Shown here: positions 15,941-63,710 of the stretch, piece after piece | Layout: each line of letters opens with the position of its first letter | Position numbering within the stretch: position 1 is the first letter of the stretch | Origin: Anthopleura xanthogrammica | Taxonomy: Eukaryota; Cnidaria; Anthozoa; Actiniaria; Actiniidae | DNA: 64,000 bases | Direction: 5' to 3' | Assembly (NCBI GenBank): GCA_964019055.1 | Contig: OZ025220.1 | Location: forward strand, 1,132,334-1,196,333 | The notes under the pieces: model-generated | Told to the model about the DNA's origin: nothing | Seen by the model: only the letters and a program-made list of their open reading frames with translations | The model's database searches: none | Program-made: the position numbers and the translations under genes

Positions 15941-17031
15941 GCCTATTATGGTGAGACAGCACCCTTCCCCCTTCCAATGCAAACTCGAGTTTTCGAATTA
16001 ACAAATCAAAGCTGTAAACAATCAATTGTTTCTATATATTTTACTAGTTCACTAAGTTGTCGGATTTACATGCGTTTAAACAAACTTCCTTTTTAAACTC
16101 GTGGATATGACGAAGAGTTAAAACGAGTTACTGTGACGGGTCTGAATATGCAAATGTGTCACTCACTCGATCGCTCACTCACTCGCTCACTATAGCGTTA
16201 GCACATCGATATTTTAACGTTAATCCATCGTCTTACGTCATCTGCTTACAAACTGCACACGAAGGTAATTTCAGCTTGAAAAAACATACTTTAAAACAAA
16301 CCAGAGTCAACTAATTGATTTAAAGTAATTTCAGCTCTCCGAGTCTTTGACCTTTACTAATTCAAGACCTTCCCATATAATTATATAAGGAAATCGAATA
16401 GCTAGAGTTTGATGTGGGATGGTATCTAGCACTGAGTCGGCTGAGCATGCGCACAGACGGATGATAGCTTAACGTACGTCAGAAAAATCAAGGAAAGATT
16501 CGGGATGAAGTAAGACAATAAAATAAACGTCTATGATAATAATAACCAACTTTATTTATAGAGGGTAAAACACGAAACAGTTTGCACTGATAAACTTGTG
16601 CCCCTCTAAACTACACTTTCAATGAGTCAAATCTTCGTTTGAAGTAAACGAGACGAAATCGTAAACATGTTCAACTTAATTGGTTTACTGATTAGTTATA
16701 AGCCTCGATTACTTCTTGTATCGCGATTCTCCTATAAGTTTGATCTGGAGAGAGCCGCCAACATACACCCGTATTGTCGGCTCAGAATAACCGCGCGATA
16801 GAAAAATCACGATACAAAACTTATTGCGATTTTGAGCCGCTAACACGGGTTATATTGACGGCGTTGGATTAAGAAAATATATTCTAAAATCTCCCAACTA
16901 GCCGCCAATATAAAGCCGTATTGGCGGCTCAAAATCGCAATAAGCTATAAGTATTCACTGGTTCCTTTTTGCTTAAAATCGAAGACTCTTCAATATGAGG
17001 CATTTGATTAATGCTACAAATGGTCATTTTT
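15941..17031. repeat. FReD unit B, 3' flanking block and A/B tandem junction
   Basis: At about 15941 the LINE-side sequence of unit A (gcgatcaactcagctg) jumps to the outer flank of the next unit (ggtgagacagcacccttcc). This is the tandem junction. At 16540-16615 a roughly 75-bp insert with an AATAAAGTT-type tail (minus strand) and TCTA on both sides is a truncated retroposon 3' end, shared with unit C only. Confidence 0.7.
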
Positions 17032-20000
17032 TTAGCCAAGTCGAGGTAAGAAAGGTGCCATGAAAAAGGGGTTTTGGGACAAACGGCGGAAAGGGCGGCG
17101 CTTGGGGATTAGGGGAGGACGGGGAGGACGGGAAGGACGGGGAAATTGACAGGAAACAATTTTGGGTTCACTCGTTTTCTCCTTAAGGAGGATTTCTGTT
17201 GGTCGAAGTTTCATGTCAGCTTTCTTAAGAGAATAATTATCTCCTTTCCAGCAGTACCAGTTGACTCCAATCGCACGAGAAACGCTTGGCGATTGGTAAT
17301 ATACGCCGTTAAGATCACACCGCATGCAGTCCTTGAACCACCACGCTCCTTTTCTTTGAACAGCGCAGTTGCCATTTTCCCAGCCAAGATCATTGTCCCG
17401 ATCCTTGGTGGTAAATGGCTGTCCTCGATGGTACGAGAGAGAATCGCCTGCGGTACCTGAAAAACAGAAGTTAATTTTGAATATGTTGAGGAATGGCAAG
17501 ACAAAAAGACAACAAGACAACAAGACAACAAGACAACAAGACAACAAGACAACAAGACAATAAGACAACAAGACAAAAAGAAAACAAGACAACAAGAAAA
17601 CAAGACAACAAGACAACAAGACAACAAGACAACAAGACAACAAGACAACAAGACAACAAGACAAAAAGACAACAAGACAACTAGAAGAGAACAAGAGAAG
17701 AGAAGAGAAGAGAAGAGAAATATAGGATATTACATGGTCGCGCGGAGATACGAATTTTATCTTCGAGTTTTGATATTATCTCTCACGAGTGAGCGAAGCG
17801 AACGAGTGAGAGATAATATCAGCACGAGAAGATAAAATTCGTGTCTCCTTCTGGCTATGTAATGTTCTGATTTCTATGAAATCTTCAATGAAAAATAATG
17901 GAGAATTTGAGAAGCTGAGCAAAAAGTCGAAATTTGTCACCACCAGTGTTGATAAAAATCATATCCCCATATATTTATACAAATTAGCTCCTCACCTGTG
18001 TAATTTTGAACCTCAAGTCTGTATTTGTTACTTTCGTCTGCCACAGCAAAGTAGTCGTATTCCACATAGGCGCTGTTTTCCTTGTGGTCTCCAAGGTCAA
18101 CTCGGAGACGTTTACGAGTCTTGTTTGTCAGTCGGTGGATTTTGTCCAGTCCCAACCAGAACTCGCCTTTCAGGTCACCAAAACCGTTCTTGTAGTCATC
18201 CCAACCTCGATAAAAGTCAACAGACCCGTCTTGTCGTCTTTGGAGCACTGTCCATCCACCACCATTGGTTTTCTGGTCACAGTAAACCTGAGTATAGAAG
18301 GAAATAAACTTAGTGTTTGAAGGATTTCCTTTAATTAATTCATTTGCCCCATAAATCATTTATTCTATATGTTTATTTGTCCCTTTTACGCATAATTATA
18401 TGCATTTTGAAATCAGAAAACATTGAATTTGATCAATCAGATCACAGAAAACTGAAGCCAACAGGATTTCATAGGTGAAAAAACAATTTGAGAAAAAACA
18501 TTTACATTTTATATTGCTAGTCTTTTCAAAATGGATATAATTGAGTAGTAATTCAACTTTGTTTCGTGCAATTTTGTTCTGAAATCAAACTTGTGATTAC
18601 TATACTTATAAAGTTAGTCACCACAACTGAGCTGAGACCGTTGAGCCGAGGATCATGGGAAACATATGCATGTCTCATTAAATAAGTAAAGCTTTTTGAA
18701 ACAAAATGCAGCTTGAAGCGAGATGCTCCCAGAAGGTTGAACCATAACTGGTAAAATATCTCAAGCCCATCAATAGCTACGAAGTGGTCTCAGCTTCATA
18801 GTTTTTTTGGAGACTAATTTTGTAATTTTGCAACTCTGTAATCGCCCGCGAGTTTGATTTCAGACCAAATTGCACTCCATGCACTCAGTTGAATCACCAT
18901 TAGTAATCATACTTTAAAAGCTCCTCTTCCATCTGGGTTGATCGTATATACACCACTGTGTTTTCCTCCACATTTGTTAAGAACTTCAGCACAGTTCCTT
19001 GGTTCTTCTGCATCTAGATCTAAAAAAAATGCAGTCAAACTAGCTAAGCAAGATTAACGTCAACCTGCGCTTGAAATAAGCCTGGGATAACATACTTTAT
19101 TGAGCCCATATACAGTCAATGTCATTAATGTTGTCCACCAAAAAAGACATTTAGACGAAAAGAAATGTCACGTGATACCTAATACACTCCCTCTACATGC
19201 TCGATACCAGAAATCATTATAGAGTTTGAAACCAGAATATATATCATTTAAAACAAATAAACAAATTATCACGTGATACTTCTTTCGGTCTTTAACTCTT
19301 TTTTTCACAACCTTTTTGACAATGACTGTGTATCTAATGATTGAATTATTTACCTTTGCATTTGAGCCGAAACCTTTTAGACAAACAATCATCTAACTTT
19401 TTGAACATACTTTCCACTTTCATGTTCAAAGTCTTCATCAAGGCTCCTATGGATAGGATATCTCTTTCCTCGTTACTCGCCGCTGACCTCTTGGCAAACG
19501 AGTGCACGTGTATGTCTTCTACGTGAAAAAAGAACAGCATGGTTTCTATGAGTACCAGGAGAAAGTTTCTAGCATCTTCAATCCTGTCTAGACCCCTTGG
19601 AAGACAAAACAATAGGTTCCGTTTCTCAGGAGATTGAAATTCTTTTGTTTTGTTCTCCAGATTGAGCTGCTTTGATGTCACGTGAAATGGATCTATAAGT
19701 TCTACCTCACGCTGGTCATAGATGGTACTAGACGAATTGATTTTTTAACCGTTATATTATTTAACCAGTTTATACCATATGCAAGGAACCTTCTCTTAAT
19801 TTGCACGGCTATAGGCGTTTGTTTTGTTGTCCGGATAACACAGTTCCGTATAAACGTAACGCCTAAACGTACAACTTTTTGAACGATTAGAAATTATGAC
19901 CCTAAGCACCAACCTATTTGATTTAGTCAATAATAAATACTTTCTCTAATCTTTTATATTGAATTTACCTTCACAATCTTCGAGCTTTTTGGAGAACTTC

Positions 20001-20152
20001 TCTATTGTCATGTTCAAAGTCTTCATCATCGTTTTTATGGACACCGCATCTTCTTCCACGTCACTGACCGATCTCTTGAAAACCGAGAGTATGTTCGCTT
20101 CGGCAATAAGAACCAAGCTGAACAGTATGAAGGCTGTTGTCCAAGGCTTCAT
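17032..20152 (-). CDS. Secreted fibrinogen-related domain (FReD) protein, copy B
   Basis: Exons 19969-20152, 19354-19518, 18913-19007, 17996-18287 and 17032-17456 encode 386 residues with the same splice phases as the other copies. The signal peptide, the two KR-Ser/NMT stalk exons, the [10 protein letters not shown] signature and the calcium loop DRDND are all intact. The pocket region reads CMRCDLNGVYYQ, different from the three paralogues. The tail is ten residues longer than in A or C, partly through an in-frame expansion (PRPSRPPRPP) that corresponds to a tandem GGGAGGACGG-type repeat at 17114-17145. Intron 4 carries an 8-bp tandem repeat and a foldback. The exon 3 acceptor (gatgcag) has a weaker tract than in the other copies; an upstream ttttttttag is an alternative. 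Confidence 0.9.
17503..17683. repeat. AAGACAAC 8-bp tandem repeat in copy B intron 4
   Basis: About 22 near-identical copies of an 8-bp unit, found only in copy B. Cys/Leu-rich open frames across it are repeat artefacts. Confidence 0.9.
17728..17865. repeat. Foldback element in copy B intron 4
   Basis: ggagatacgaattttatctt on the left is mirrored by agataaaattcgtgtctcc on the right, with an inner hairpin ctctcacgagtg/cgagtgagag. It is absent from intron 4 of A, C and D. Confidence 0.65.
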
Positions 20153-20212
20153 TTTCACTGCTATGAGTCGTGCAAAGCATACACTTAAACTGGGAGAACT
20201 TACAACGGCAAG

Positions 20213-20226
20213 TCTATATATATGTA
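20213..20226 (-). promoter_or_regulatory. Putative TATA box of FReD copy B
   Basis: TATATATA about 60 bp before the start codon, in the same position as in copy A. Confidence 0.45.
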
Positions 20227-20479
20227 TGCATGAGAGCAGAAAATTAAGAATGCCAAAGACCCCCAAAGTGTCCTATTTCCGGATCAAGCTTCACACAAAC
20301 ACCCTTCAATAATTGTGAAAATTGTTTTCAATGACTGATTTAATAACTTGCTCTTGAAACAATTAGAAAATCTGGCCTGAAGAAAAAAAGTATTTAGAAC
20401 CGTTTTTCGTTTTAGAGATTCCTAGAAGAGAAGAAGACGTAAGTTATGTAAGGTGAAGTTTCTGCCAAAACGAAAATTT

Positions 20480-21400
20480 TGAAAATCTGCCAAAGTGCCT
20501 GGAGCTAGGCGTGGCAGTTACGCTTCAACATGCAACTCCAAGTGTGAGGTATTAACTGTTTCCCGTGCAAATGAACCAATCAAGTTCAATTATATCTTAG
20601 ACTCTAATACTCTTAACCAAGTATCATCTCAGTTAAAAGACCTTGGGGTCATTGTATTGGATAACCTTAAGTGGAACAATCATATAGACCATGTATTAGG
20701 GGTATAGGATATTAGGATTCTTGCGTAGGCATAGTTTGAAATCATTTGATGAAAAGACAAAGAAACTTCTTTATCTTTCTTTCGTCCGCCCAGACGACGT
20801 AGTTTATGCAAGTGAGGTCTGGGCAACTTAAGTAGGGTAGGGTCTCCAACGTAGGGCTATCAAATTTATTTTAAATGTGAATTATCTTAACAGCATTCCT
20901 TATCGAGATCGTCTCATTAAGTTAAATTTACTTCGACTTTCGTATTGGCACGAGTCTAAGGACTTGTTATTCTATTTTAAATGTCGTGTTGGTCATTTTA
21001 ATATTTCCATTGATCGCTTTGTTAAGCCTCGATCTAATTATAGAATTACTCGCCACAGTTCCATGTATGATGTTCTAATTCCTAGATGCCGTACAAAACT
21101 CTTCCAATCCAATTATTTTAACCGCTTGCGTAAACTTTGGAATAATCAACTGTGTTCGGTACGCTTTTCTCCTTCTATTAATCAGTTTAAATCTTATCTT
21201 CTTAAGTATTATAACAATGCACTATCTAATGCTTATAATCCTGATAAGGAAGAAAAGGCGAGTTTATTCCAGCTGGGTTGCCGTTCAGAACAAACTCAAG
21301 GTCAACCAATCAGAATTGAGGATTCGACATCGTATTTTGATTAGCATTTCCCATTATTCTGCCAAGAGAATTTATGAAATACGAGTTCTTCCTTCTTTAA
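20480..21400 (+). pseudogene. LINE reverse transcriptase 3' fragment, unit B
   Basis: Same fragment as in unit A, with NLKWNNHIDHVLGV followed by the shared stop. The C-terminal piece runs through YNNALSNAYNPDKEEKAS. It lacks the 163-bp MITE and so shows the original uninterrupted sequence at that site. Confidence 0.8.
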
Positions 21401-21720
21401 ATTAATCGTAAACGCTAGTCGAACTCATGGCAAAAAAAGTCTACGTTGAATACTCGGAAAATGCCAACCAAAAATAGTGACCCATAATTCCTTTCGGGGA
21501 AGGCGATCAACTCAGCTGGTTGATATGCTGAGAGCAGAAAAACAAGAGTGCCATATACCTCTTAAGTTGAGACCTATTTCAGGGTCCAACTGCTCACAAG
21601 AACTGCTAAATTAAAGCAGAAAATGTTCTCGACGATTTAACATATTCACACGAAGGAAAAAGAAAAAGAAAAAAAATTGTTAGAACTCCTTTTCGTTTTA
21701 GAGATATTTTGTGAGAGATC

Positions 21721-21957
21721 ACAGGTAGCCCAAGCTGGGTTTCTGTGGTGTTATATTATAAGAAAATTTATGGGGATCCATAAAAAAACCTCAATAAAAT
21801 CTTCAAAATGTGAAATAAAGTAAAGAAATCTTAGCTGACCTTTGAGTAGTCATACCTCTATCGCCCTGCCTGGTTAGAACTCGGATTAGGCCAGTTTTAG
21901 CGTTTTTTTTTTCCACTGTTAATATAACACCACAGAAACCCAGCTTGGGCTACCTGT
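21721..21957. repeat. Foldback element, ACAGGTAGCCCAAGC ends
   Basis: acaggtagcccaagctgggt at the left end is mirrored exactly at the right end. The opposite arm carries the equivalent at about 56720-56905. Confidence 0.7.
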
Positions 21958-22091
21958 GGAGAGATCGAAGGTCACTGATTGTATAATTGTAAACTGAGTC
22001 ATGATCAGTTGGCAGACTTCCGGTGTAGGAAGCTATTGCACGTTTATTGATATGCTGCAGAGAGCAGAAAATCAAGAATGATGCGGATAAG

Positions 22092-22165
22092 GATAATATG
22101 TACAATTTATATAGCGTTTATCCGAGTCTGCTCTAAGCGCTTTACAATTCTAAAAGATGAATGAT
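22092..22165. repeat. Short SINE/MITE-like repeat (TTTATATAGCG ... AAGCGCTTTACAA)
   Basis: The pair tttatatagcg and aagcgctttacaa recurs in variant form at 48325-48375. From 22170 to 23100 no gene is seen. Confidence 0.45.
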
Positions 22166-23103
22166 ATAAAACTTAAATACAATTCACATCATCGTAAAGA
22201 GCACACAGATTGATCTCCTAAACGGTGTCTCAGATTTTTGATAAACGTTGCTTTTAATGGTTGCGAAAATATTTTTTCCCAAATTGGATGACGTGATTTT
22301 TACTTCTCTTACGCATAAATCATGAAATAACTTTAAAACGAGACGAGATATAAAAAAAACTGAGGCATTGTTCTTGAGATGAGATATAGGTCAACATATC
22401 CGTCTGCAAAGTTTCAGAAAAGTTGATTGAATTCTGGCGTTCCAGGAACCTCTTCGAAAAAGCGGTCGAAATTTATAAAACTCGCACTTTTAAAAATTCA
22501 TGAGTTTGATCAAAAAATTATCAACATGGTTGAAATCCATGTTTTTTCAAGAAAAAATTTTCTCTGCCAGGCAAAATGGCGGTTTTGTAGGTGAAGTTTG
22601 GCAATCCACTTCCATCGGTCTTATTATTCAAGCAAGAAGTTTTAAAACCACCAAGATATAATGATAAGTAGTTATTTTATGCTTTTCGTGAGATTTTATA
22701 AATTTTGGCAACGAATCTAAGGTACATTTTATATGTAAATAATGATATAGGCGCGCAGAGCATTGTAGTTGACTAGGATTCTACAAAGCTGATTTGCCAA
22801 GACAGTTTTTGTTGAAATGTCAATGTTTTTAGGTGTTATCTGATTGGTCAGTTTTGTTCAAGTGGTCCCGGTTAGTGTGTCTGTACTATAAATATGATTA
22901 TTATTTATGGATTAGATAATGTTCACAACATAAGTGGCCTGGTGTATTTTTATGGCAGAAATGTTAGGGGAAAAAAACGTTCGCCAACCCATGGGGAGTG
23001 CAAGGCCTTTCTGTATTGTTGCTATACATAGAAAATTTCTTGATTAGACTGACGACATTAGCATATTACAATTTCAACCACTTAAAGATTTATTTAACGA
23101 CCA

Positions 23104-23325
23104 TGTTACACGAGACGATTTTCAACGACGATTTTTCGCGCAACACTGCAAAAAAATCGTTATTTTGAGTATTGCGAGGTTTTGACTTTAGATCAGAAAA
23201 ACTCACAACGTGTTGCCTGAAGTCGAAATTACGCTACAAAAAATGTTCCATGTTATATGGTATAAACCTTTCGCTTAATAGCGTTGCGCGAAAAATCATC
23301 GTTCCAAATCGCCTCGTATAACACC
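23104..23325. repeat. Foldback element, GTTACACGAGACGATTTTC ends
   Basis: ttacacgagacgattttcaa plus cgatttttcgcgcaac on the left mirror gttgcgcgaaaaatcatcg and cgcctcgtataac on the right. Only part of it is left at the matching position of the other arm (54480-54530). Confidence 0.65.
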
Positions 23326-23497
23326 AAGCTTTCGAACAGAGCTGTCGATAATCAGGGCAACTGAACATGCAAAACGAACTGTCCGAAAGGTTGGCGTTTT
23401 GAATAAATCTTCACGGGGTTTAAACTTTAATTTTTGTGGGCCAAATTGGAAACAAGCTCACTTATTCTGCTGTATTTGATACCCACGTTAAATAAAA

Positions 23498-23501
<4 letters not shown>

Positions 23502-23540
<39 letters not shown>

Positions 23541-23541
23541 T
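23502..23541. repeat. (TTA)n microsatellite
   Basis: About 13 TTA units in a row. Confidence 0.85.
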
Positions 23542-23659
23542 GTTACATGGGTACGTCCAATTATAATGGTATTCCTAATCTAACATTAGCATAACACAAG
23601 TCATGAATTATTTTATTTTATCTGGAGCGACTTGGTTGCCATTGTTTCTGGTGCATGGT

Positions 23660-24916
23660 TTAGTTGAGCACTTCTTCTTCTGAACGCTCTGTATCGTTTC
23701 TTGGAATCTTCAGGATCAAACTGTCAATTTTGTAGAATGCCAAATACTTGTATTTTTTGTTTCCAATGGAAACCTGAAATAGGGAAGGAATTTTGAAATT
23801 AAGATTGAAAATTATGTTGCTTCTAATTTTGGCTTCATGCCAATACGCTGCTTTCTTACGACCAATAAAGCATTTCGATTTGGCTCATTAGCATCAAATT
23901 CGAGGGGCACTTTGCATGAACACAATAGTTTTCATGTGCAGTGAAGGATAACAAGCTATTGTATTTATGCAAAGTGCCCCTCAAAGTCGAGAATAAGAAA
24001 CCAGTGAATATAATGGCCCAACAGAATCTCTAAAATAGTCTGGTAGCGTTAGAAAACTTTGCCAAATGCATATACCAAGGGCCGTTGCCTGCTTTGTTAC
24101 CAAAAATTTAACTTCAGTTTATAATCAGTAATACCATGGTACTGAAGGCGAATTTGATTAACTATATTAACTCTCCGTAATTGACAGGCGGTTAAGTATT
24201 ACTGACGTAACGAACATCGCGCGGTCGCGTTTCTGTTGTTACATACAGAGCCAAGTACGGAACGGCCGTTACTGGAATAAGTACAAATCGGTTATTCAAA
24301 CCCTTTGACCTTTGAAGTAAAACTTAATTTTAGCAGCAAAGGAACACAAATACAAGATAAGTAAACAAAAATAATGTTCATTTGATTTAAATAATCGGGG
24401 GAAAACTATAGAAATCCAACCACTTTATGTGTCCCAGTGCCCTTGCTTGATGGGAACATTACCTTCAAGATGTAATGCTGCAAAGGTAATAACCTCTGTG
24501 CCATCTTGTACGAAACTGCATGAAATGTTTTCGTGCCATTTCTCTCGGCCTCATATTCCTAAAATATTTTTACATACAACCTCATTATTCAAATAAAAAG
24601 TATAGTACTTCATATGGATAACGTAAAATGAAGATTGTAATGATAATGATGATGATAATGATGATGATGATGATGTTAATGATATGATGATGATATGATG
24701 ATGATGATGATATGATGATGATGATATGATGATGATGATATGATTATAATGATGATGATGATGATGTTAATGATATGATGATGATGATATGATGATGATG
24801 ATGATATGATGATGATGATGATGATGATGATATGATGATATGATGATGATGATGATGATGATGATGATATGATGATATGATGATATGATGTTGGTGATGA
24901 TGATGATGATGATGAT

Positions 24917-24970
<54 letters not shown>

Positions 24971-25520
24971 GTGGTGATGATGATGATGATGGTAATGATG
25001 ATGATGATATGATGACGATGATGATGATGGTGGTGGTGGTGGTGGTGGTGGCGGTGGTGGTGGTGGTGACAAACAAATAACGGATGAGGTTGAGCATGAT
25101 ATAGCAAATTATTAATCTATGACGGCAACAAGTTTTTTAGTGTTTCTACACTATTTCGTGTAATACCGTCGTTAAATAAAGACGTTAATTTTATTATTAA
25201 GACGTCGTGTTATCTGCAGAAGCCGTAATACATTTTGCATGTCAAACAATTTCCCTTGCAAATGTCAGATTTGCTCAAACTTGATGGGCAAGATTTTAAA
25301 GTTTGAAGTAAATTACCTGTTACCCATGTCATTAAAATTAACCCCACTTCCCATGGTAGATATGGTAGTTATAATGATATAGTGATGGCGATTATATTTT
25401 GATCATATTGAGTGATTATCAACATCTTCTAACCTTGCTGTCGTAGATTAATCTTTGCAGTTCAGCATCTGCAGCTGTGAGGTCTTCACCAATTTTGAGC
25501 GCCTTAAGGTTTTCATTCAT
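23660..25520 (-). CDS. Stefin-like (type 1 cystatin) cysteine protease inhibitor homologue
   Basis: Exons 25434-25520, 24463-24558 and 23660-23773 join in phase 0 at clean GT-AG sites (donors AAG|gtta and AAG|gtaa) to give exactly 98 residues. That is the classical stefin length, and three exons is the classical plan. There is no signal peptide, so it should be cytosolic. Family marks are an N-terminal Gly (KIGEDL), ADAELQ like the ADAEIQ of stefins, FHAVSYK at the start of the first hairpin and YILKVSIGNKKYKYL like stefin strands 3-4. The protease-binding loop, normally Q-V-V-A-G, reads Q-R-L-L-P. The inhibitory loop is therefore not conserved, and activity against papain-like proteases is doubtful. 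A GAT/GGT microsatellite fills intron 1. A decayed twin lies in the opposite arm. Confidence 0.8.
24638..25068. repeat. (GAT)n/(GGT)n microsatellite in stefin intron 1
   Basis: Long imperfect GAT repeat with GATAT variants, followed by a pure GGT block at about 25028-25068. The twin intron at 50749-51053 has the same repeat in inverted orientation. Confidence 0.95.
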
Positions 25521-25734
25521 TATTTTCTATCAAGAATAATTCATAACATCGATGAAATAGATAAACACCACGGGTCTGTACAATTTGAGTATTTCTATAT
25601 TTTTGTAACTCATCGACGTACTAAAGCATTTGATTTTTTTGTATCTAGAAGAATCAGTGATGGAATATGGCGGTAATACTCTGGCCTCTCAACATCTTCA
25701 CTCAGTCTGCTATATGACCCAGCAGAGGAAGGAT

Positions 25735-26600
25735 TCGATTTGTGAGTTAGCCATGCCTTGACTTAGATCAGCCCAGAGGTTGTTTCAGGGTTCTATCTGT
25801 ATGTTAGCCGTGCCCTGACTTAGATCAGCCCAGAGGTTGTTTCAGGGTTCGATCTGTCAGTTAGCCATGCCCTGACTTAGATCAGACCAGTGGTTGTTTC
25901 AGGGTTCTATCTGAGAGTTAGCCATGCTCTGACTTAGATCAGACCAGAGATTTTTTCAGGGTTCTATCTGTGAGTTAGCCATACTCTGACTTACATCAGA
26001 CCAGAGGTTGTTTCAGGGTTCGATCTGTGAGTGAGCCATGCCCTGACTTAGATCAGACCAGAGGTTGTTTCAGGGTTCTATCTGTGAGTTCGCCATGCCC
26101 TGACTTAGATCAGCCTAGAGGTTGTTTCAGGGATCTATCTGTGAGTTAGCCATGCTCTGACTTACATCAGACCAGAGGTTGTTTAAGGGTTCTATCTGTG
26201 AGTTAGCCATGCCCTGACTTACATCAGACCAGAGGTTGTTTCAGGGTTCTATCTGTGAGTTAGCCATGCCCTGACTTACTGACATCAGACCAGAGGTTGT
26301 TTCAGGGTTTGATCTGTGAGTTAGCCATGCCCTGACTTACATCAGACCAGAGGTTGTTTCAGGGTTCGATCTGTGAGTGAGCCATGCTCTGACTTAGATC
26401 AGACCAGTGGTTGTTTCAGGGTTCTATCTGTGAGTTCGCCATATCCTGACTTAGATCAGCCCAGAGGTTGTTTCAGGGTTCTATCTGTGAGTTAGCCATG
26501 CCCTGACTTACTGACATCAGACCAGAGATTGTTTCAGGGTTCTATCTGTGAGTTAGCCATGCCCTGACTTAGATCAGCCCAGAGGTTGTTTCAGGGTTCG
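25735..26600. repeat. 57-bp minisatellite, about 15 units
   Basis: The unit begins gagttagccatgccctgact and contains cagaggttgtttcagggttc. Units differ at a few positions and two carry a short ACTG insertion. The inverted arm has about 8 units at 49998-50440. Confidence 0.93.
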
Positions 26601-26846
26601 AACGATCAGGGATTTGGTTTGTTAAAGATATTCAAATAAAACATAGGAGGCAACTTTATTTAACTTACGTAAAGTTGCTGCATTTGCTCTTCTTTCTGTC
26701 AAATAGAATGCAGGCATTAATAACTTTTGAGAAAATACGTTGAGTTAAAATGCTAGTTGTTATAGTCAAACTAACTCATGCTTTCATATATGGTTCAAAA
26801 ATTCAGTTTACAACCATTATCGTTGAAGTGCGACACCCCAAGATTG

Positions 26847-51910: not shown

Positions 51911-52115
51911 AGAAAAAACCTACTAATGGTCTATCACCAATCGAGCCCTGTGATTGGCTGAGCTACTAGGGGTCTATTAGTGATAGACCTCTAGTAGTGA
52001 AAAGCGCCGGTTTTGAAAACGAAAAAAAACATATTTAAAGCAAAATCCAAAACTTTTTGCATCCTTTTATTGGACCGATTAGTAGGTTTTTACTAAAACA
52101 ATTAGACCTCTCGCC
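51911..52115. mobile_element. MITE with AAAAACCTACTAAT ends (copy 3)
   Basis: Follows the FReD fragment exactly as copy 1 does in gene C intron 1, so fragment and MITE moved together. Confidence 0.68.
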
Positions 52116-52179
52116 CTCATGGCCTACGAGTCAATAGCCCACTCATAGAACATTCGGACTCGAGGACTAATTGTTAATT

Positions 52180-52850: not shown

Positions 52851-53104
52851 TGTCTCCGACAAATAATATTTATTTTATAAGATAAAGTTACATTTTTGGT
52901 AACAAAGCAGAAATGCCCTTGGAATCTCCCCTGGCCAAAGCTTTTCAACGGTACCAGACTATTCTATCCACTGGTTTCTTATTCTCGATTTTGAGGGACA
53001 CTTTGCATAAATACAATAGCTTGTTTTCCTTCACTGCACATAAAAACTATTGTGTTTATGCAAAGTGGCCCTCAAATTTGATAAAATTTTTGCATAAAAA
53101 TGTA

Positions 53105-53185
53105 TAAAAAATATGCAAATTTTACTCTGACCTCGAGCTCGCGATGGGATCATAAGGGATTGTGGGAAGACTACGGAAAGGAGCA
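53105..53185. repeat. Dispersed ATGCAAAT/CTCGAGCTCGCG repeat
   Basis: Third copy of the sequence seen at 6866 and 63541-63710; it ends ggaaaggagcat like the others. Confidence 0.6.
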
Positions 53186-53622
53186 TTGGTCGTAAGAAAG
53201 CAGTATAATTGGCATGTAGCCAAAATTAGAAACAACATAATTTTAAATCTTAATTTCAAAATTCTTTCCCTATTTCAGGTTTCCATTGGAAACCAAAAAT
53301 ACAAGTATTTGGAATTCTACAAAATTGACGATTTGATTCTGAAGATTCAAAGGAATGACACAGACTACCCAGAACCAACAGTGCTTAAGTAAACCATAGT
53401 TAATGGAGTGGAATGGTTTGGAAACCTATTGTTCTAGGTTTTTGTTTCACGAGCGATGTTGAAACGTACCATCTAGTGATACTGTCGTGATACTGACCGT
53501 GCACAATGAACCAAAGCAAGTATGGCTGAAAATACTAGTTTCCTTACTATTTTCATGTACGAACATTTTGAAAGGGTAAAATTTTCATTCTAAGATTACA
53601 AAGAGGAGGATAAATGATTAAA

Positions 53623-53799
53623 TTAATAGACCTTTTTACCTTCGTATGCAAATTGCCCATTTCAGACCACATGTCATTCCCTTGAGAAATGTTCTTTTGT
53701 TAAAATATTTACACATGAAAGAATCAACTCCCAAGCTAAGAGTGGCATCACGTGGTCTGAAATGGGCACAACAAACAACGAAGGTAAAGAGGTCTATTA
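53623..53799. mobile_element. MITE with CACGTG-type ends (second copy)
   Basis: The ends ttaatagacctttttacctt and its mirror enclose catttcagaccacatgtcat and acgtggtctgaaatggg. Related to 3967-4163. Confidence 0.65.
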
Positions 53800-54171
53800 A
53801 TCAACAATTATCAAATGTTTCCTAAGTTACTATGAAGAAACGCTGCAACTTTTCCTTCTCTGTGCACGGTCATATAACAATATAAAAAGTCGATCGAAAC
53901 AATTAAGTCCTAGAACGATAGGTTATTTTTCTTCTAGCAATTGCACTCCATTAACTATGAGTAAGCCATGCACAAGAAACAATAGCAACCAAATCGCTCC
54001 GGATAATATAAAATCATTCATTTGTTATGCTCATGTTAGATTAAGAATACAATTGTACGTGGGTATATCCATGTGACAACTTATAGTTTCAACCACGTGA
54101 AGATTTATTTAAAACCCCAAGCTTTCAGATAGACGGAGCATGTTGTAACTTTTCACTTCCCCTGATGATGG

Positions 54172-54454
54172 GCCGGGGGGGGGGGGGTACTCCCTATAAT
54201 TAACTATACGGGGATGCTCCGTCCGAAAGAGGTACGTTTTTCAGGCCGCAAGCATAGAAAAGGGGTGGAAATTGGTGAGTTTTGATATAAAAAGGGGTAG
54301 CTTTTCTTCAAAGGTATATGAAAGGGTTACCTTTTCAGGCAAAACAGGTATATAAAAGGGGTCCTTTTTTGCTGAAATTTGGTATAGAAAAGGGTAAGGG
54401 GTCGAGAGTCCGGGCGGAGCATCCCCGTATGAAACGACCCGAAGTACCCCCGGG
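54172..54454. mobile_element. 283-bp G-tract MITE with 8-bp target duplication
   Basis: GATGATGG flanks both sides (54164-54171, 54455-54462). Inside, acggggatgctccgtccg mirrors cgggcggagcatccccgt. The left arm has the empty site (near 23350), so it inserted after the arms formed. An 8-bp duplication fits hAT-type elements. Confidence 0.75.
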
Positions 54455-55170
54455 GATGATGGACGCTCTGCGCTACGCGAAACTGAAATCGTCGTTGCAA
54501 ATCGTCTCGTGTAACATCGCCTTTACATAAATCTTCACGCGGTTGAAACTATAATATGCTAATATTGCCTAATCAAGCAATTTTCTATATATTCATAACA
54601 ACCAAACGGGACAGCCTTGCTCTGGCCACGGCTTTTTCCCTGACATTTCAAGCCTAGCACTGGCCATGAGTTGGCGAACTTTTTTTTTGACATTTCCACC
54701 AGGCAGCAGGTTGTTTTATAAACAGTTTTTAATCAATAAATAACATATTTACAGTACAGGCCGTAGACACTAACCGGGAACACTGGGAACAAAACTAACC
54801 AATCAGATAACACCTAAAAGCATTGACATTCCAACAAAAACTGCCTTGGCCAATGAGCTTTAAAGAATCCTGGTCAACTACAATGCACTGTGTGCTTATA
54901 TCATTGTTTACATACGAAACTTACCTTAGATTTGTTGCCAAAATTTATAAAATATCACGAAAAGCATAAAATAACTACTTATCATTATATCTTGATGGTT
55001 TTAAAACTTCTAGCTTGAATAACAAGACCGATGGAAGTGGATTCCCAAACTTCACCCACAAAGCCGCCATTTTGCCTGGCAGAGAAAATGGTGGATTCCA
55101 GTGTTTTTGGCGCGCAGTGCATTTTAGTTGACTAGGATTCTTTAAGAATTCGAAACTGGTATTTTTACGA

Positions 55171-55266
55171 AGTTTTCGTCTATAGTTTTCGTCTATAGTT
55201 TTCGTCTATAGTTTTCGTCTATAGTTTTCGTCTATAGTTTTCGTCTATAGTTTTCGTCTATAGTTT
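55171..55266. repeat. 13-bp tandem repeat (TATAGTTTTCGTC), about 7 units
   Basis: Exact tandem copies with one change (tatagtttacg) at the end. Confidence 0.92.
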
Positions 55267-55269
55267 ACG

Positions 55270-56435
55270 TTTTAGTTTTTTTGAAATTCGGGATTTTTCG
55301 AAGGCAGGAGGACAGAAACTATTTCCAATATCAACTTGGGATCAGTAGACCTTTCAAAACTGAGTTTTCGACAAAAATTACACTCATTTTCGATGCTGTT
55401 TTGTGTTCTGCATGCTGTCCGTATTTACCTAATTGATGCGAAATGGCCGTGAAAACGTGATGATCTGATTGGCTATTATACTGTCATCAGTTCAATCTCT
55501 GTCTAGTTGTCCCAGTTAGTGTTTCCGCGCTTTTTTGTTTCATTTTTTAGCTTCAAGTTTTTATTTGATTCTACAAATTTTTATTTAGTCTCAAAAGTAA
55601 AATACCTAGATAAAAGGCGTATACTCTTAACATTGACCGGTTAATCATACTTTTTGCTTTTTGTAATTAATATAAACTGGAGCGAGTAATAAAGGACCGC
55701 ATATCAAAAGTATTTCTGTTTTTGGTTTTATTAAAACATCAGATGATGAAATATCCGTTGACGACATCCACAGTACCTCCATCATCTCAGGGCCGTAGCT
55801 ACGATGAGGCAAGCGAGACATTTGCCTCGGTAAAATTTCAGATATTATTGTTTAGTTTTCTTTAATTCTTAAAGAATGAAACAAATTCTCTTCTTTTTCT
55901 TTACCAGAATGTGCAAAATTGACATAACTTTAATACAATGAATATGTCGCAAATGCCTCTCAAGACGCTGGAAATCCCATTTCCGAGGGTCTGAACCCGG
56001 GTATCCCAAGCTGGGTTTCTGTGGTTTCCTAACGAACTTATAGGGCAATGTATGGCGATTTTTCGAAAAAATTAAAAATCAGTAAATCACACAAATAAAT
56101 GTCCCTACTTGTGTTTCGTGTTTTGCTTTGAGTTTCTGTGAAGTTTCAGGTCATTTGCAGCAATATTGAGCGAGTATTGTGGTGGAGTATCCCTCGTACT
56201 TAAAAATTGGGAAGGTAGCACACTTCAGGCCGCTCGAACCCTCGATAAGGGTCAATAATTCGCCTCTAGTTCAGCCAAAATTACACATCAAGCCGAAATT
56301 CTTTCACAGAACCTTAGTTCGATATCTGATACAACCACACAATCGATCTCCCTTTCGGAATTCAACGCTAACAGTTTCAAAAGCCAATTTTTTTCGAAGC
56401 CATTGCCAATCCGATGTGATATGAACCAACCATTT
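55270..56435. other. No supportable gene
   Basis: AT-rich; only short frames. gtatcccaagctgggtttct near 56001 is a single arm of the foldback family at 21721. Confidence 0.45.
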
Positions 56436-56440
56436 CGGTT

Positions 56441-56655
56441 ACGGCTTTCAACCGTCGTTACAAAAACCATACGTACCCTCCCCTAAAATCCTTCTGTGTT
56501 GATTGATACAAGTACGTTGTTTACATATATTTTAAATAAATCACTTCTCTATTGGCGGATTGCTCAATATTGGTCAGCTAAAACAATAGCGGTGACCTTT
56601 GTTAACCTTGGAGGGGAGGGTACCTATGGTTTTTGTAACGACGGTTGAAAGCCGT
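56441..56655. repeat. Foldback element, ACGGCTTTCAACCGTCG ends
   Basis: acggctttcaaccgtcgtta through accctcccct on the left is mirrored at 56605-56655 with a single mismatch visible (tacg/tagg). Confidence 0.7.
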
Positions 56656-57246
56656 TCAACTTTCATTCAACATTAAACCTGGTTTACAATTATACAATCT
56701 GTGACCTTCGATCTCTCCACAGGTAGCCCAAGCTTGGTTTCTGTGGTGTTATATCTTAATAAAATCGTCAAAATGTGAAATAAAGTAAAGAAATCTTAGC
56801 TGACCTTTGAGTAGTTATACCTCTATCGCCCTGCCTGGTTAGAATTCGGATTAAGCCAGTTTTAGCGTTTTTTCCCTCTCCACTGTTAATATGACACCAC
56901 AGAAACTCACAAAATATCTCTAAAACGAAAAGGAGTTCTAACAATCTTTTTTCTTATTTTTTTCCTTCGTGTGAATATGTTAAATCGTTGAGAACATTTT
57001 CCGCTTTAATTTAGCAGTTCTTGTGAGCAGTTGGACCCTGAAATACGTCTCAACTTAAGAGGTATATGGCACCCTTGTTTTTCTGCTCTCAGCATATCAA
57101 CCAGCTGAGTTGATCGCCTTCCCCGAAAGGAATTATGGGTCACTATTTTTGGTTAGCATTTTTCAAGCATTTTTTCGAGTATTCAACGTAGACTTTTCTT
57201 GTTGATTGAAATAAAATTCCGCCATGAGTTCGACTAGCGTTTGTGA

Positions 57247-58345
57247 TTAATTTAAAGAAAGAAGAATTCGTATTTCATAAATTCTCTTGGCAGAATAATG
57301 GGAAATGCTAATCAAAATACGATGTCGAATCTTCAATAGCCAACTTTCGATATTCTGGTTGAGTGATCCCGCACAAAGGAATTGAAGACGAGGCTCCAAG
57401 GAAACAAAAGAATATATTCGGATTACTCCATCGTTTCCCCGGAGCCTCACCTTGAATAGCTTTGTGCGTGATCACTGAACCAGAATATCGAAAGTGGGCT
57501 ATTCTGATTTTTTTACCTTGAGTTTGTTCTGCAGGGCAACTCAGTTGGAATAAACTCGCCTTGGCTTCCTTATCAGGATAATAAGCATTAGATAGTGCAT
57601 TGTTATAATACTTAAGAAGATAAGATTTAAACTGATTAATAGAAGGAGAAGAGCGTACCGAGCACAGTAGATTATTCCAAAGTTTACGCAAGCGGTTAAA
57701 ATAACTGGATTGGAAGAATTTTGTACGGAATCTAGGAATTAGCACATCATACATGGAACTGTGGCGAGTAATTCTATAATTAGATCGAGGCTTAACAAAG
57801 CGATCAATGGAAAGATTAAAATGACCAACACGACATTTAAAATAGAATAACAAGTCCTTAGACTCGTGCCAATACGAAAGTTGAAGTAGATTTAACTTAA
57901 TGAGACGATCTCCATAAGGAATGCTGTTAAGATAATTCACATTTAAAATAAATTTGATAGCCCTACGTTGGAGACCCTACCCTACTTAAGTTGCCTATTC
58001 CCTGAGGGGCCCAGACCTCACTTGCGTAACCTACGTGTGGGCGGACGAAAGAAAGATAAAGAAGTTTCTTTGTCTTTTCATCAAATGATTTCAGGCTATG
58101 CCTACGCAAGAATCCTAACATCCTATACCCCTAATGCATGGTCTATATGATTGTTCCACTTAAGGTTATCCGATACAATAACCCCAAGGTCTTTTAAAGA
58201 TGACACATGGTTAAGAGTATTAGAGTCTAAGATATAATTGTAGTTGATTGGTTCATTTTTACTGGAAAAAGTCAATATCTCACACTTGGAGCTGCATGTT
58301 GAAGCGTAACTGCCACGCCTAGCTCCAGGCACTTTGGCAGATTTT
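57247..58345 (-). pseudogene. LINE reverse transcriptase 3' fragment, unit D
   Basis: The longest of the four copies. In minus-strand order it reads NYNYILDSNTLNHVSSLKDL, the shared stop, then LNSIPYGDRLIKLNLLQLS and FNRLRKLWNNLLCSVRSSPS. The MITE at 57338 lies in its tail, as in unit A. Confidence 0.82.
57338..57500. mobile_element. 163-bp MITE with AT target duplication, unit D
   Basis: Orthologous in position to 15544-15706 and the same length; absent from unit B. Confidence 0.75.
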
Positions 58346-59105
58346 CAAAATTTTCGTTTTGGCAGAAACTTCACCTTACATAACTTACGTCTTCTTCTCT
58401 TCTAGGAATCTCTAAAACGAAAAACGGTTCTAAATACTTTTTTTCTTCAGGCCAGATTTTCTAATTGTTTCAAGAGCAAGTTATTAAATCAGTCATTGAA
58501 AACAATTTTCACAATTATTTAAGGGTGTTTGTGCGGTAGTTTGACCCGGAAATGTGACACTTTAAATCTCCAAAGCGAAAAGCAGTTCTAATAATGTTTA
58601 ATAATTTCTAATTTCTAATAATAATAAGACCAGGATTTGTTATCCAAAGTTTTTATTTGTTTCAAGAGGAGGTTAAATTATTGAGAACATTTTGTCTCTT
58701 TATCATAACTGTGTTTGTGCGCAGTTTGACCCCAAAATACTTCACTAAGAAGTCTATGGCTTTTTTTATATTCTGCTCTCGACATATCAATTAACATGCC
58801 TTAGCATCCTACACTGGAAGTCTATCATCTGATCACTTTTGGCAGATTTCAACATTTTCGTTTAGGCAGAAAATCCACCTTATGTATCCTACATCCTCTC
58901 ATCTAACAAATCTCTAAAACGAAAAGCAGTTTTAAAAAGATTTTCCTTACTTTTATCCTTCAAGACAGGGTTGGTTATCTAAAGAGGAGGTTAAATCACT
59001 AAAAGCATTTTCGCAATATTATTTAAGGGTGTTTGTGTGAAGCTTGACCCGGAAATATGCTACTTGAAAGGTCTTTGGCATTCTTAATTTTCTGCTCTCA
59101 TCCAC

Positions 59106-59116
59106 ACATATGTATA
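59106..59116 (+). promoter_or_regulatory. Altered TATA box of FReD copy D
   Basis: The site that is TATATATA in A-C reads TATGTATA here, at the same distance from the ATG. Confidence 0.4.
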
Positions 59117-59178
59117 GACTTGCCGTTATAAGTTCTCCCAGTTTAAGTGTATGCTTTGCACGACTCATAGCAGTGAAA

Positions 59179-62100
59179 ATGAAGCCTTGGACAACAGCCT
59201 TAATACTTGTCAGCTTGGTTCTTTTTGCCGAAGCAAACATACTCTCGGTTTTCAAGAGATCGGTCAGTGACGTGGACGAAGATGCGGTGTCCATAAAAAC
59301 GATGATGAAGACTTTGAACATGACAATAGAGAAGTTCTCCAAAAAGCTCGAAGATTGCGAAGGTAAATTCAATATAAAAGATTAGAGAAAGTATTTACTA
59401 TTGACTAAATCAAATAGGTTGGTGCTTAGGGTCATAATATAATAAAAAATTGCTTCTCCAACCTATCAGTTAACCGGACAAATTTCAAAAAGTTGTACGT
59501 TTAGGCGTTACGTTTATACGGAACTGTGCTATCTAGACAACAAAACAAACGCCTATAGCCGTGCAAATTAAGAGAAGGTTCCTTGCATATGGTATAAACT
59601 GGTTAAATAATATAACGGTTAAAAAATCAATTCGTCTAGTACCATCTATGACCAGCGTGAGGTAGAACTTATAGACCCATTTCACGTGACATCAAAGCAG
59701 CTCAATTTGGAGGTCAAAACAAAAGAATTTCCATCTCCTGAGAAACGGAACCTATTGTTTTGTCTTCCAAGGGGTCGAGACAGGATTCAAGATGCTAGAA
59801 ACTTTCTCCTGGTACTCATAGAAACCATGCTGTTCTTTTTTCGCATAGAAGACATACACGTGCACTCGTTTGTCAAGAGGTCAGCGGCGAGTAACGAGGA
59901 AAGAGATATCCTATCCATAGGAGCCTTGATGAAGACTTTGAACATGACAGTGGAAAGTATGTTCAAAAAGTTAGATGATTGTTTGTCTAAAAGGTTTCGG
60001 CTCAAATGCAAAGGTAAATAATTCAATCATTAGATGCAGTCATTGTCATAAAGGTTGTCCTGTGAAAAAAGACATAAAGACCGAAAAAAGTATTACGTGA
60101 TGATTTGTTTATTTGTTTTAAACGATATATATTCTGGTTTCAAACTCTATAATGAGTACCAAGGAACAGAGAATAATGATTATTAACTCTACTTCTACAA
60201 TGATTGCTGGGTGATCTAGCATTTAGAGCGAGTGTATTAGGTAACACGTGACATTTCTTTTCGTCTAAATGTCTTTTTTGTTGGACAACATTAATGACAT
60301 TGACTGTATATGGGCTCACTAAAATATGTTATCCCAGGCTTATTTCAAGTGCAGGTTCACGTTAATCTTGCTTAGTTTGATTGCCTTTATAGAAGAACCA
60401 AGGAACTGTGCTGAAGTTCTTAACAAATGTGGAGGAAAACACAGTGGTGTATATACGATCAACCCAGATGGAAGAGGAGCTTTTAAAGTATGATTACTAA
60501 TGGTGATTCAACTGAGTGCATGGAGTGCAATTTGTATAGGAAATCGCATGGTTTCGAGTGCACTTTGGAATAAATTTGCACGAGCGGGTTTTTAAAGAGC
60601 TCAAAATTGCACGAGCCCGATAGGGCGAGTGCTATTTGAGCTTTTTGAAAACCCGCGAGTGCAAATTTATTCCAAAGTGCACGAGAAAACCATGCGATTT
60701 CTTGTTAATAATATAGATGCAAAAATTTCGAACCAAAATTCCTTGTTTATTAATATTCATGCTCATAAAAATTCATAGAGTGTTGATCAAATGTGTGTTT
60801 TTCAAGAGCTCATTGAGCGCGCGCTCAATGACGTGGAAAGCTTCAGCAGCGCGCGCTCTTCAACTGAAACCGACAAAATATTTATTCAAAAACAAACAAA
60901 ATCACCAACTTTTTAGCCGTTTTCACCGCTTAAACTTGTTCCTTCGCGATCAGAAAATGCATAGTCTTGATGCTTGATAATGTTATCAACAGCAGAATCA
61001 AAAAACATTTGGTTTCAAGACCGTTTTCGGAAATTGTAATTTGCACCGGTGTTTCAGGTTTTTGCACTGGTGTTTCACGTTTTTGCACTGGTGTTTCAGG
61101 GAAACTGCACTGCTTTAAACCAATCAGAAGTGAGAAATTTTTGCATCTATATTATTAGGTCTGAAATCAAACTCACGGGCGATTATAAAATTGCAAAATT
61201 ACAAAGTTAGTCTCAAAAAAAAAATGCTAGTAGCTAATGTTGGGCTTGAGATATTTTACCAGTTATAGTTTAACCTTCTGGGAGCTCGGCTCAACGGTCT
61301 CAGCTCAGTTGTGGTGACTAACTTTATAAGTATAGTGATCACAAGTTTGATTTCAGACCAAAATTGCACGACACAAACTTGAATTACTACTCAATTATAT
61401 CCATTTTGAAAAGACTGGCAATATAAAATGTATATTTTTTTTCCTCAAATTGTTTTTTCACCTATGAAATCGTGTTCAGCATATTTTTCTCACGCTTTAA
61501 ATTGGCTTCGGTTTTCTGTGATCTGATTGATCAAATTCTATGTTTTCTGATTTAAAAATGCATATAATTATGCGTAAAATGGACAAATAAACATATAGAA
61601 TAAATGATTTATGGGGCAAATGAATTAAGGAAAGGAAATCCTTCAAGCACTAAGTTTATTTCCTTCTCTACTCAGGTTTACTGTGACCAGAAAACCAATG
61701 GTGGCGGATGGACAGTGCTCCAAAGACGACAAGACGGGTCTGTTGACTTTTATCGAGGTTGGGATGACTACAAGAACGGTTTTGGGAACCTGAAAGGCGA
61801 GTTCTGGTTGGGACTGGACAAAATCCACCGACTGACAAACAAGACTCGTAAACGTCTCCGAATTGACCTTGGAGACCACAAGGGAAACAGTGCCTATGCA
61901 GAGTACGACTACTTTGCTGTGGCAGATGAAAGTAACAAGTACAGACTTGAGGTTTTAAATAACACAGGTGAGGAGCTAATTTGTATCATCTACTCTTCTT
62001 CTCTTCTCCTTTCCTTTCCTCTTTCTCTCTTCTTGTCCGGCACCAATCTTGCCATTCCTCAACACATTCAAAATTAACTTCTGTTTTTCAGGTACCGCAG

Positions 62101-62498
62101 GCGATTCTCTCTCGTACCATCGAGGACAGCCATTTACCACAAAGGATCGCGACAATGATCGTGCCTCGGAAAATAGCAACTGCGCTGTTCGTAGAAAAGG
62201 AGCATGGTGGTTCAAGGACTGCATGTGGTGCCATCTTAACGGCGTCTATCACCAATCGCCAAGCGTTTCTTTTGCGATGGGAGTCAACTGGTACTGCTGG
62301 AAAGGAGATCATTATTCTCTTAAGAAAGCTGACATGAAACTTCGACCAACAGAAATCCGCCTCAAGGAGAAAACAAGTGATCTTAAAATTCCTCCCTGTG
62401 AATACCCCCGTCCTCCCCTTATCCCCAAGCGCCGCCCTTACCGCCGTTTCTCCCAATACCCCTTTTTCGTAAATCCTTTCGCTCCTCAACCTGGCTAA
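59179..62498 (+). CDS. Secreted fibrinogen-related domain (FReD) protein, copy D
   Basis: Exons 59179-59362, 59849-60013, 60393-60487, 61676-61967 and 62092-62498 encode 380 residues. Signal peptide about 1-19; stalk exon 1 to residue 61 and stalk exon 2 about 62-116, both with KR-Ser and KTLNMT; FReD about 121-331 with [25 protein letters not shown], calcium loop DRDND (264-268), [15 protein letters not shown] and WYCWKGD; then a 49-residue basic and proline-rich tail. Exon 2 is flanked by phase 1 introns, so skipping it would keep the frame (325 residues). The upstream in-frame Met at 59110 is unlikely, because MKPWTT starts the signal peptide in all copies. Intron 3 holds a 624-bp insertion not found in A-C. 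It is the only copy on the plus strand. Confidence 0.9.
60534..61157. mobile_element. 624-bp insertion in copy D intron 3
   Basis: Copies A-C read gcaatttggtctgaaatc without interruption. D has the insert between gcaattt and ggtctg. It contains a palindrome at 60541-60700 (gcatggtttcgag/ctcgtgcac type) and three copies of TTTGCACTGGTGTTTCA at 61040-61085. No transposase is coded. Confidence 0.65.
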
Positions 62499-62499
62499 A

Positions 62500-63440
62500 G
62501 AAATGACCTTTTGTAGCATTAATCAAATGCCTCATATTGCAGAGTCTTCGATTTTAAGCAAAAAGGAACCAGTGAATACTTATAGCTTATTGCGATTTTG
62601 AGCCGCCAATACGGCTTTATATTGGCGGCTAGTTGGGAGATTATGGAATACATTTTCTTCCAACGCCGTCAATATAACCCGTGTTAGCGGCTCAAAATCG
62701 CAATAAGTTTTGTATCGTGATTTTTCTATCGCGCGGTTATTCTGAGCGGACAATACGGGGGTATGTTGGCGGCTCTCTCCAGATCAAACTTGTAGGAGAA
62801 TCCCGATACAAGAAGTAATCGAGGCTTATACTACTAATCAGTAAACCAATTAAGTTGAACATGTTTACGATTTCGTCTCGCTTACTTCAAACGAAGATTT
62901 GACTCATTGAAAGTGTAGTTTAGACGTTTATATTATTGTTTTACTTCATCCTGAATCTTTCCTTGATTTTTCTAATGTAAGTTAAGCTATGTTCGTCTGC
63001 GCATGCTCAGCTGACTACGTGCTAGATACCATCCCACATCAAACTCTAGCTATTCGATTTCCTTATATAATTATATGGGAAGGTCTTGAATTAGTAAAGG
63101 TCAAAGACTCGGAGTGCTAAAATTACCTTCGTGTGCAGTTCGTAAGCAGATGACGTAGGACGATGGATTAACGTTAAAATATCGATCTGCTAACGCTATA
63201 GTGAGCGAGTGAGTGAGCGATCGAGTGAGTGACACATTTGCGTATTCAGACCCGTCACAATAACTCGTTTCAACTCTTCGTTGTATCCACGAGTTAAAAA
63301 AGGAAGTTTTTTTAAACGCATGTAAATCCGACAACTTAGTGAACTAATAAAGTATATAGAAACAATTGATTGTTTAAAGCTTTGATTTGTTAATTCGAAA
63401 ACTCGAGTTTGCATTGGAAGGGGGAAGGGTGCTTGTCTCA
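62500..63440. repeat. FReD unit D, 3' flanking block
   Basis: Reverse complement of the flank of unit A. It has the empty site of the 1,875-bp element near 63413 and lacks the retroposon tail of B and C. Confidence 0.7.
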
Positions 63441-63540
63441 CCATAATAGAGACCTTACGCATAAGGATGGCAACGAGGGAGGATGAACCGAGTTCCGTTT
63501 TTCGTGCGCGCGCCGTCGTCCTCGGGTAGTCGTTCGCGTT

Positions 63541-63710
63541 ATGCTCCTTTCCGTAGTCTTCCCAAAATCCCTTATGATCCCAGCGCGAGCTCAAGGTCAG
63601 GGTAAAATTTGCATATTTTTTATACATTGTTATGCAAATTTTACCCTGACCTCGAGCTCGCGCTGGGATCATAAGGGATTGTGGAAAGACTACGGAACGG
63701 AGCATAACGT
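63541..63710. repeat. Head-to-head pair of the ATGCAAAT/CTCGAGCTCGCG repeat
   Basis: Two copies of the repeat seen at 6866 and 53105 meet at about 63630 in opposite orientation. They form a palindrome with arms of about 80 bp and atgcaaat facing outward from the centre. After 63710 only short frames are seen. Confidence 0.68.

Follow-up and report, generated by a model that had tools for sequence, protein, structure and literature searches.

Five predicted FReD genes in a cluster of mixed orientation, with inverted segments, in the sea anemone Anthopleura xanthogrammica

A stretch of 64,000 nucleotides from Anthopleura xanthogrammica (Cnidaria; Anthozoa; Actiniaria; Actiniidae), forward-strand positions 1,132,334 to 1,196,333 of contig OZ025220.1 (assembly GCA_964019055.1), carries predicted fibrinogen-related domain (FReD) genes in mirror order and raises the question of how such an arrangement has come about. 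This stretch is called the window below, and all coordinates follow its own numbering. An earlier note on the same DNA had described one large inverted duplication with the same gene set in both arms and a spacer of about 23 kb. The mirror-image structure is real and was correctly seen, but it was under-described. The reading considered likely here is a local cluster of five FReD gene copies with an inverted component, produced by old duplication and later homogenisation. The cluster is fairly ordinary and its structure is of a well-known type.

The inverted homology between the arms has been established by comparing the window with its own reverse complement, a check proposed in the earlier note. 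In the chained BLAST self-comparison, positions 15943-26755 match 63449-49838 in inverted orientation through 15 colinear blocks, with 6510 aligned bases and 92.4% ungapped identity. Matches lying wholly within satellites were excluded from this chain, although two blocks still extend into a satellite. The arm ends agree with those given earlier to within about 260 bp, and the spacer (26755-49838) measures 23.1 kb, as had been estimated. Among matches of at least 250 bp with E<=1e-20, the window contains 88 inverted and 42 direct ones, whereas five Markov-resampled windows gave no such inverted match; the mirror order is thus above chance. The left 40-kb flank holds 0 inverted and 46 direct matches, the right one 2 and 42, respectively. 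Many of the 88 inverted matches are satellite arrays in shifted register, and the satellite-free pairs in the window number 20 inverted and 21 direct. The parts flanking the units in this mirror structure are:

5656..7097, forward strand: outer flank O of the left arm, composed of a (TTCTC)n edge, a (GGATA)n array and a unique piece (BLAST chain, mirror of 65418-63413)
21315..26755, forward strand: inner tail T of the left arm (BLAST chain, divergence analysis)
49838..57337, reverse strand: inner tail T' of the right arm (BLAST chain, divergence analysis)
63413..64000, reverse strand: start of the outer flank O' of unit U4, continuing to 65418 outside the window (BLAST chain)

The outer flank and its mirror are 95.4 and 96.5% identical in the BLAST chain, and the outer homology stops on both sides at a pentanucleotide array, (TTCTC)n/(AGAGA)n, at 5313-5695 and 65379-65418.

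Mapping of the sequence shared by the arms shows that it is present not twice but five times, in the orientation + + + - -:

8973..15959, forward strand: unit U1 (unit mapping)
15943..21715, forward strand: unit U2, in tandem with U1 (unit mapping)
40453..46882, forward strand: unit U3, inside the spacer and direct to U1 and U2 (unit mapping)
57083..63449, reverse strand: unit U4, inverted to U1-U3 (unit mapping, BLAST chain)
65746-72916 in window numbering, reverse strand: unit U5, just beyond the window (unit mapping)

The inner tail is common to U2 and U4 only and the outer flank to U1 and U4 only, while U3 and U5 possess no T. Identity between unit pairs ranges from 94.4 to 97.7% over 3563 core sites, which remain from 3945 columns present in all five units after poorly aligned columns were dropped. 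The unrooted tree of these sites separates U1 and U2 from U3, U4 and U5 with a support of 100, and joins U4 with U5 at 71.

Each unit encodes a predicted FReD gene with an open frame, in agreement with the FReD gene reported earlier for both arms. A five-exon model was transferred from U4 to all copies by exon mapping, with AG/GT at all four introns, and yields proteins of 376, 386, 376, 380 and 370 residues for U1-U5, respectively. The gene models located in the window are:

9884..14407, reverse strand: FReD gene of U1, exons 14224-14407, 13578-13742, 11572-11666, 10403-10694 and 9884-10278, 376 residues
17032..20152, reverse strand: FReD gene of U2, exons 19969-20152, 19354-19518, 18913-19007, 17996-18287 and 17032-17456, 386 residues
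41352..45766, reverse strand: FReD gene of U3, exons 45583-45766, 43301-43465, 42827-42921, 41877-42168 and 41352-41746, 376 residues
59179..62498, forward strand: FReD gene of U4, exons 59179-59362, 59849-60013, 60393-60487, 61676-61967 and 62092-62498, 380 residues

The full-protein domain scan covered the U1 and U4 proteins, and both carry a complete Fibrinogen_C domain (PF00147) far above the curated cut-off of 22: the U1 protein with E=7e-77 and 258.6 bits (domain positions 3-220 of 221), the U4 protein with E=4.1e-76 and 256.1 bits (residues 119-331, domain positions 2-220 of 221). In a search of the genome (290 Mb, 125 contigs), each of the five copies has one exon above the same cut-off. 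That search returned at least 159 Fibrinogen_C matches (best 150 of 364 candidates), which are exon matches and not a gene count. The closest solved relatives of the U4 protein are tenascin-R, FIBCD1 and ficolins. No immunoglobulin (Ig) or collagen domain has been detected in the U1 and U4 proteins up to E=1, although further upstream exons are possible; the Ig domain beside a fibrinogen domain that marks the cnidarian ficolin-like (CniFL) proteins is therefore missing from these two models. Judged by sequence, the genes appear to be ficolin/tachylectin-like FReD genes, where the lectin-like label comes from the family and binding is only predicted. By analogy, the proteins may be secreted and may have a role in recognising microbes or symbionts. 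Over the ten pairs, the ratio of nonsynonymous to synonymous divergence (dN/dS) amounts to 0.41 when the variable C-terminal end described below is left out; exons 3-4 have 0.20, and the part of exon 5 with the predicted ligand loop has 0.56. This loop was placed after ficolin structures. As a separate observation, the first two coding exons (59179-59362 and 59849-60013 in U4, the other copies being alike) resemble each other by eye, with the pattern KRS...LMKTLNMT...KKL(E/D)DC.

Identity plotted along the arms, another check proposed in the earlier note, falls into two levels: divergence is about 3-6% in the flank, unit and proximal tail, in contrast to 12-20% in the distal tail. The outer flank differs between the arms by 4.3-4.8% and the parts of the unit by 2.9-5.7%, columns in a gappy or poorly matching context having been dropped for the latter; for introns the values are 4.4% (U1-U4) and 5.1% (U2-U4). 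In the proximal tail 16 of 473 sites differ, compared with 183 of 1174 in the distal tail (Fisher p=5e-14), where single blocks range from 12.3 to 20.2%. A dispersed repeat (8.5% divergence) and a 55-base block (83.6% identical) were excluded from both tail groups. The step is located at an interruption of the homology at about 22.0-22.5 kb.

Inside the units, the relationship between copies changes with position. Site patterns uniting U1 with U2 stand against those uniting U2 with U3 or U5 as 1:12 in the first 800 alignment columns and as 41:8 elsewhere (p=6.5e-7). The longest shared runs are significant for U3-U4 (p=0.0004), for U3-U5 and U4-U5 (both p=0.0002) and for U2-U3 (p=0.001), and, corrected for 10 pairs, these four still lie at or below 0.01. 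The longest run that U3 shares with U4 falls in another part of the unit than the one it shares with U5, both partners being inverted relative to U3. The units are mosaics, with conversion as the most economical reading of the aligned copies. The earlier expectation that such copies exchange sequence holds in part: mosaic units and a sharp two-level divergence of the arms have been found, yet no significant run links U2 with U4, the units of the two arms.

The following history may be proposed. An ancestral block O-U-T, consisting of an outer flank with the pentanucleotide array, the gene unit and an inner tail ending near a 57-bp minisatellite, would have been duplicated once in inverted orientation. 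The left unit would then have doubled in tandem into U1 and U2, and the right side would have given rise to U4 and U5 and also, by re-inversion or by insertion into the spacer, to U3. If the left unit doubled after the inversion, an outer flank common to U1 and U4 and a tail common to U2 and U4 are to be expected. Homologous recombination among the copies (gene conversion, including that between inverted copies) would have held O, U and the proximal tail at about 95% identity, with the distal tail, past the non-homologous interruption, retaining its older divergence. It is the order of these events and the conversion mechanism that we infer.

Several points weigh against this history. The identity of U1 to U4 (95.71%) and to U5 (95.62%) is as high as that to U2 (95.79%), its neighbour in tandem, and the introns of U1 diverge less from those of U4 (4.4%) than from those of U2 (5.3%). 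Homogenisation would account for this, but so would near-simultaneous copying, and the proposed order is thereby weakened. No significant run was obtained for six of the ten pairs, U2-U4 (p=0.65) and U1-U4 among them, and that of U4-U5 may be due to a recent origin. In the tree built from the first 464 core sites, U2 and U3 are united with a support of only 77. Both cut points (22.3 kb and column 800) were set with the data already in view, which makes the p-values too good. The comparison covers the five copies of a single assembly. Finally, two-level divergence could also be generated by rate differences or by separate duplications of different age. Three insertions in the right arm enter into the weighing of such alternatives:

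60535..61150, forward strand: 616-bp element with terminal inverted repeats, in U4 only (genome search)
51272..51497, forward strand: 225-bp dispersed element in T' (genome search)
51506..52108, forward strand: copy of U3 43480-44082 in the right tail, 99.5% identical and direct, adjoining the 225-bp element (self-comparison)

The arm-specific insertions seen earlier at 60534 and 51270 are dispersed elements. The 616-bp element occurs at 40 places, its own included (best 40 of 631 candidates), with 87-100% identity and some copies partial; the 225-bp element has at least 37 matches elsewhere in the genome among those listed, at 98-100%. The U3 source piece reaches from just beyond exon 2 into a U3-specific insertion, and its near-identical copy in T' points to copying that was recent and over a short distance.

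Separate duplications of different age without conversion, in which an old inverted T was joined later by a younger U inserted beside both tails, are unlikely. Such a course would produce two divergence classes with a sharp step, and it agrees with the lack of T in U3 and U5, so that units move alone, with the 99.5% copy of a U3 piece within T' and with the missing U2-U4 run. However, O, U and the proximal T would have had to land in register and in the same orientation beside both old tails, and the mosaic site patterns inside the units would be left unexplained. An assembly artefact, either a fold-back or unmerged haplotypes, is highly improbable. Assembly is difficult for such repeats, and the work uses assembly sequence; nevertheless, as the earlier note had argued for an old and real duplication, the arms differ by about 3-20% and carry different transposon insertions (616 and 225 bp), and the locus lies 1.1 Mb inside a 10.6-Mb contig. 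In addition, no N occurs in the 144 kb inspected, and a 2-kb query from U2 with its tail has no full-length match on another contig (best 40 of 2261 candidates). A single two-armed inverted duplication, or palindrome with a spacer, explains the colinear inverted arms, but with five units, U1 and U2 in tandem, U3 direct within the spacer and U5 past the right arm, the unit map refutes it, barring assembly errors for U1, U3 and U5, and leaves it next to no probability.

In all five proteins the frame continues 36-52 residues beyond the usual end of the FReD domain, the extension being encoded by the last exons (9884-10278, 17032-17456, 41352-41746 and 62092-62498, plus that of U5 outside the window). 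It is rich in proline and arginine and comprises a conserved part ending in PLIPK(R/H)R, into which six residues are inserted in U2, followed by a short variable end of 10-20 residues. In this variable end dS is raised about 8-fold and dN about 19-fold over the remainder, whereas the DNA 3' of the stop varies little between copies. The protein terminates in G-stop in four copies (U1-U4) and in GKK-stop in one; the G-stop of U1-U4 corresponds to a single aligned site, most likely inherited once, and the end of U5 is reached in a shifted frame. Positive selection on the C-terminal end was considered and rejected: over 22 alignment columns dN is 0.62 and dS 0.60, and since both are high, they point to local hypervariability or a doubtful alignment and are no proof of selection. 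A second frame is also open over the extension in U1, U3 and U5 (three of the five copies) and closed in U2 and U4; the open frame is therefore weak evidence.

The last exon of U4 gave 131 matches in the genome (best 150 of 156 candidates), among which the five cluster copies extend without a stop; only 4 of the other 126 pass residue 100 of 135, each with internal stops. No similar extension was found elsewhere in the genome by this last-exon similarity search, in which unrelated tails would be missed. Three paralogues (one at 0.92 Mb of C15, the contig of the window, and two at 3.61 Mb) possess no extension, their frame ending at the usual place, and none of 83 judged homologues (best 120 of 3012 fetched, 37 of them unjudgeable) runs at least 10 residues past the end motif. 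That the extension represents a novel cationic peptide, secreted, cut at dibasic sites and amidated, which is carried on a lectin-like protein and has been diversified by duplication and conversion in the cluster, is a conjecture drawn from sequence that we regard as very doubtful. Outside the cluster, the FReD paralogue most similar in its last exon (C15, 921 kb) has a second copy of the last-exon end downstream.

The gene set ascribed earlier to both arms also contained a stefin gene, which has not been found by tblastn, motif, Pfam or NCBIfam tests of the window; what the arms share belongs to the five-unit FReD cluster of mixed orientation. With human cystatin B as the tblastn query, the best candidate (E 0.40, 57645-57731 inside U4) contains a stop and was rejected, and the corresponding place in U1 reaches E 8.2; the cystatin B core query likewise gave no support for a stefin gene in the window. 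The QxVxG-type motif has 0 occurrences in the six frames of the window, the cystatin model (PF00031) matches none of 50 chosen open reading frames and none of three small ones at 24.4 and 51.1 kb, and an NCBIfam scan of two small open reading frames gave no stefin support. These tests suggest the absence of a stefin gene from the window.

Further repeats and frames of the window are:

22557..22790, forward strand: dispersed 230-bp repeat, common to both tails (genome search)
25730..26599, forward strand: 57-bp minisatellite of the left arm, the homology ending 156 bp beyond, at 26755
49999..50424, reverse strand: 57-bp minisatellite of the right arm, the homology ending at 49838
57308..57976, reverse strand: 222-residue open frame, no Pfam match up to E=0.1

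The minisatellite does lie near the inner edges of both arms, as had been noticed, but it is not specific to them: with further arrays at -33.2, 73.2 and 84.7 kb relative to the window, 144 kb hold five of them, and at three of these an arm or unit ends nearby. The proposed long interspersed nuclear element (LINE) fragment is not confirmed: the 222-residue frame, which may resemble the end of a reverse transcriptase of the kind without long terminal repeats, has no Pfam match, and the part of U2 corresponding to it, at about 20.5-21.25 kb, is dispersed in the genome. The part at 23.4-24.1 kb matches only both arms, apart from simple-repeat matches of at most 43 bases near 23.5 kb (best 40 of 1457). 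No RNA family reached the gathering level in the window.

A 367-residue open frame at 29584-30687 (forward strand) has a sub-threshold GIY-YIG match (E=0.017) and is perhaps a remnant of a Penelope-like element, and in the spacer an open frame at 34874-35434 (reverse strand) exceeds the curated cut-off for a SAP domain (E=3.3e-6). At 47-544 (reverse strand) a 165-residue open frame has a sub-threshold u-PAR/Ly-6 match (E=0.00086). Elsewhere in the assembly, mitochondrial genes lie on a contig of 20,039 bases, where COX1 is split into two pieces. The ND2 protein of this contig is 98% identical, over its full length, to a cluster whose representative is the sea anemone Anemonia manjano, followed among named hits by other sea anemones with 88% over 80-84%; by this one protein, the source would be an actiniarian. 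Contigs C59 and C44 have further COX1 matches in long open frames, possibly from associated microbes.

The locus shows at base level, within about 67 kb, the growth of an immune-type gene family in a cnidarian by an inverted duplication joined by several others, by the insertion of transposons and probably by homogenisation of some parts. Should inverted copies indeed convert one another, it would offer a compact case for testing the selective homogenisation of inverted gene copies, in which the predicted ligand loop and the C-terminal end diverge while other parts stay alike. Neither such a tail nor such an anemone cluster was found described among the open-access titles and abstract openings listed.

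Among related systems, CniFL proteins carry a fibrinogen domain. Most of those of sea anemones possess one transmembrane and three Ig domains and, like the family studied here, show copy-number variation in sea anemones (PMC5094078); in contrast, neither an Ig nor a collagen match was obtained for the U1 and U4 proteins. Human Y palindromes such as P8 also have inverted gene-bearing arms, which conversion keeps alike (PMC6790999). Here, the arms are about 92% alike, the spacer exceeds each of them in length, and units have multiplied in and around the arms. The nearest precedent found is the Sp185/333 (SpTransformer) cluster of the purple sea urchin (PMC3091723): a tight cluster of small invertebrate immune-type genes in which segments of gene plus flank have been duplicated. 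There, the segment edges lie at microsatellites, suggested to block the spread of conversion, similarity falls outside them, and gene conversion is discussed. The locus described here differs in its FReD family, in the clear inverted pair with a 23-kb spacer and in its boundaries: the outer ends of the arms lie in pentanucleotide arrays and the inner ones about 160 bp beyond the 57-bp minisatellite, but single-unit edges are without tandem arrays.

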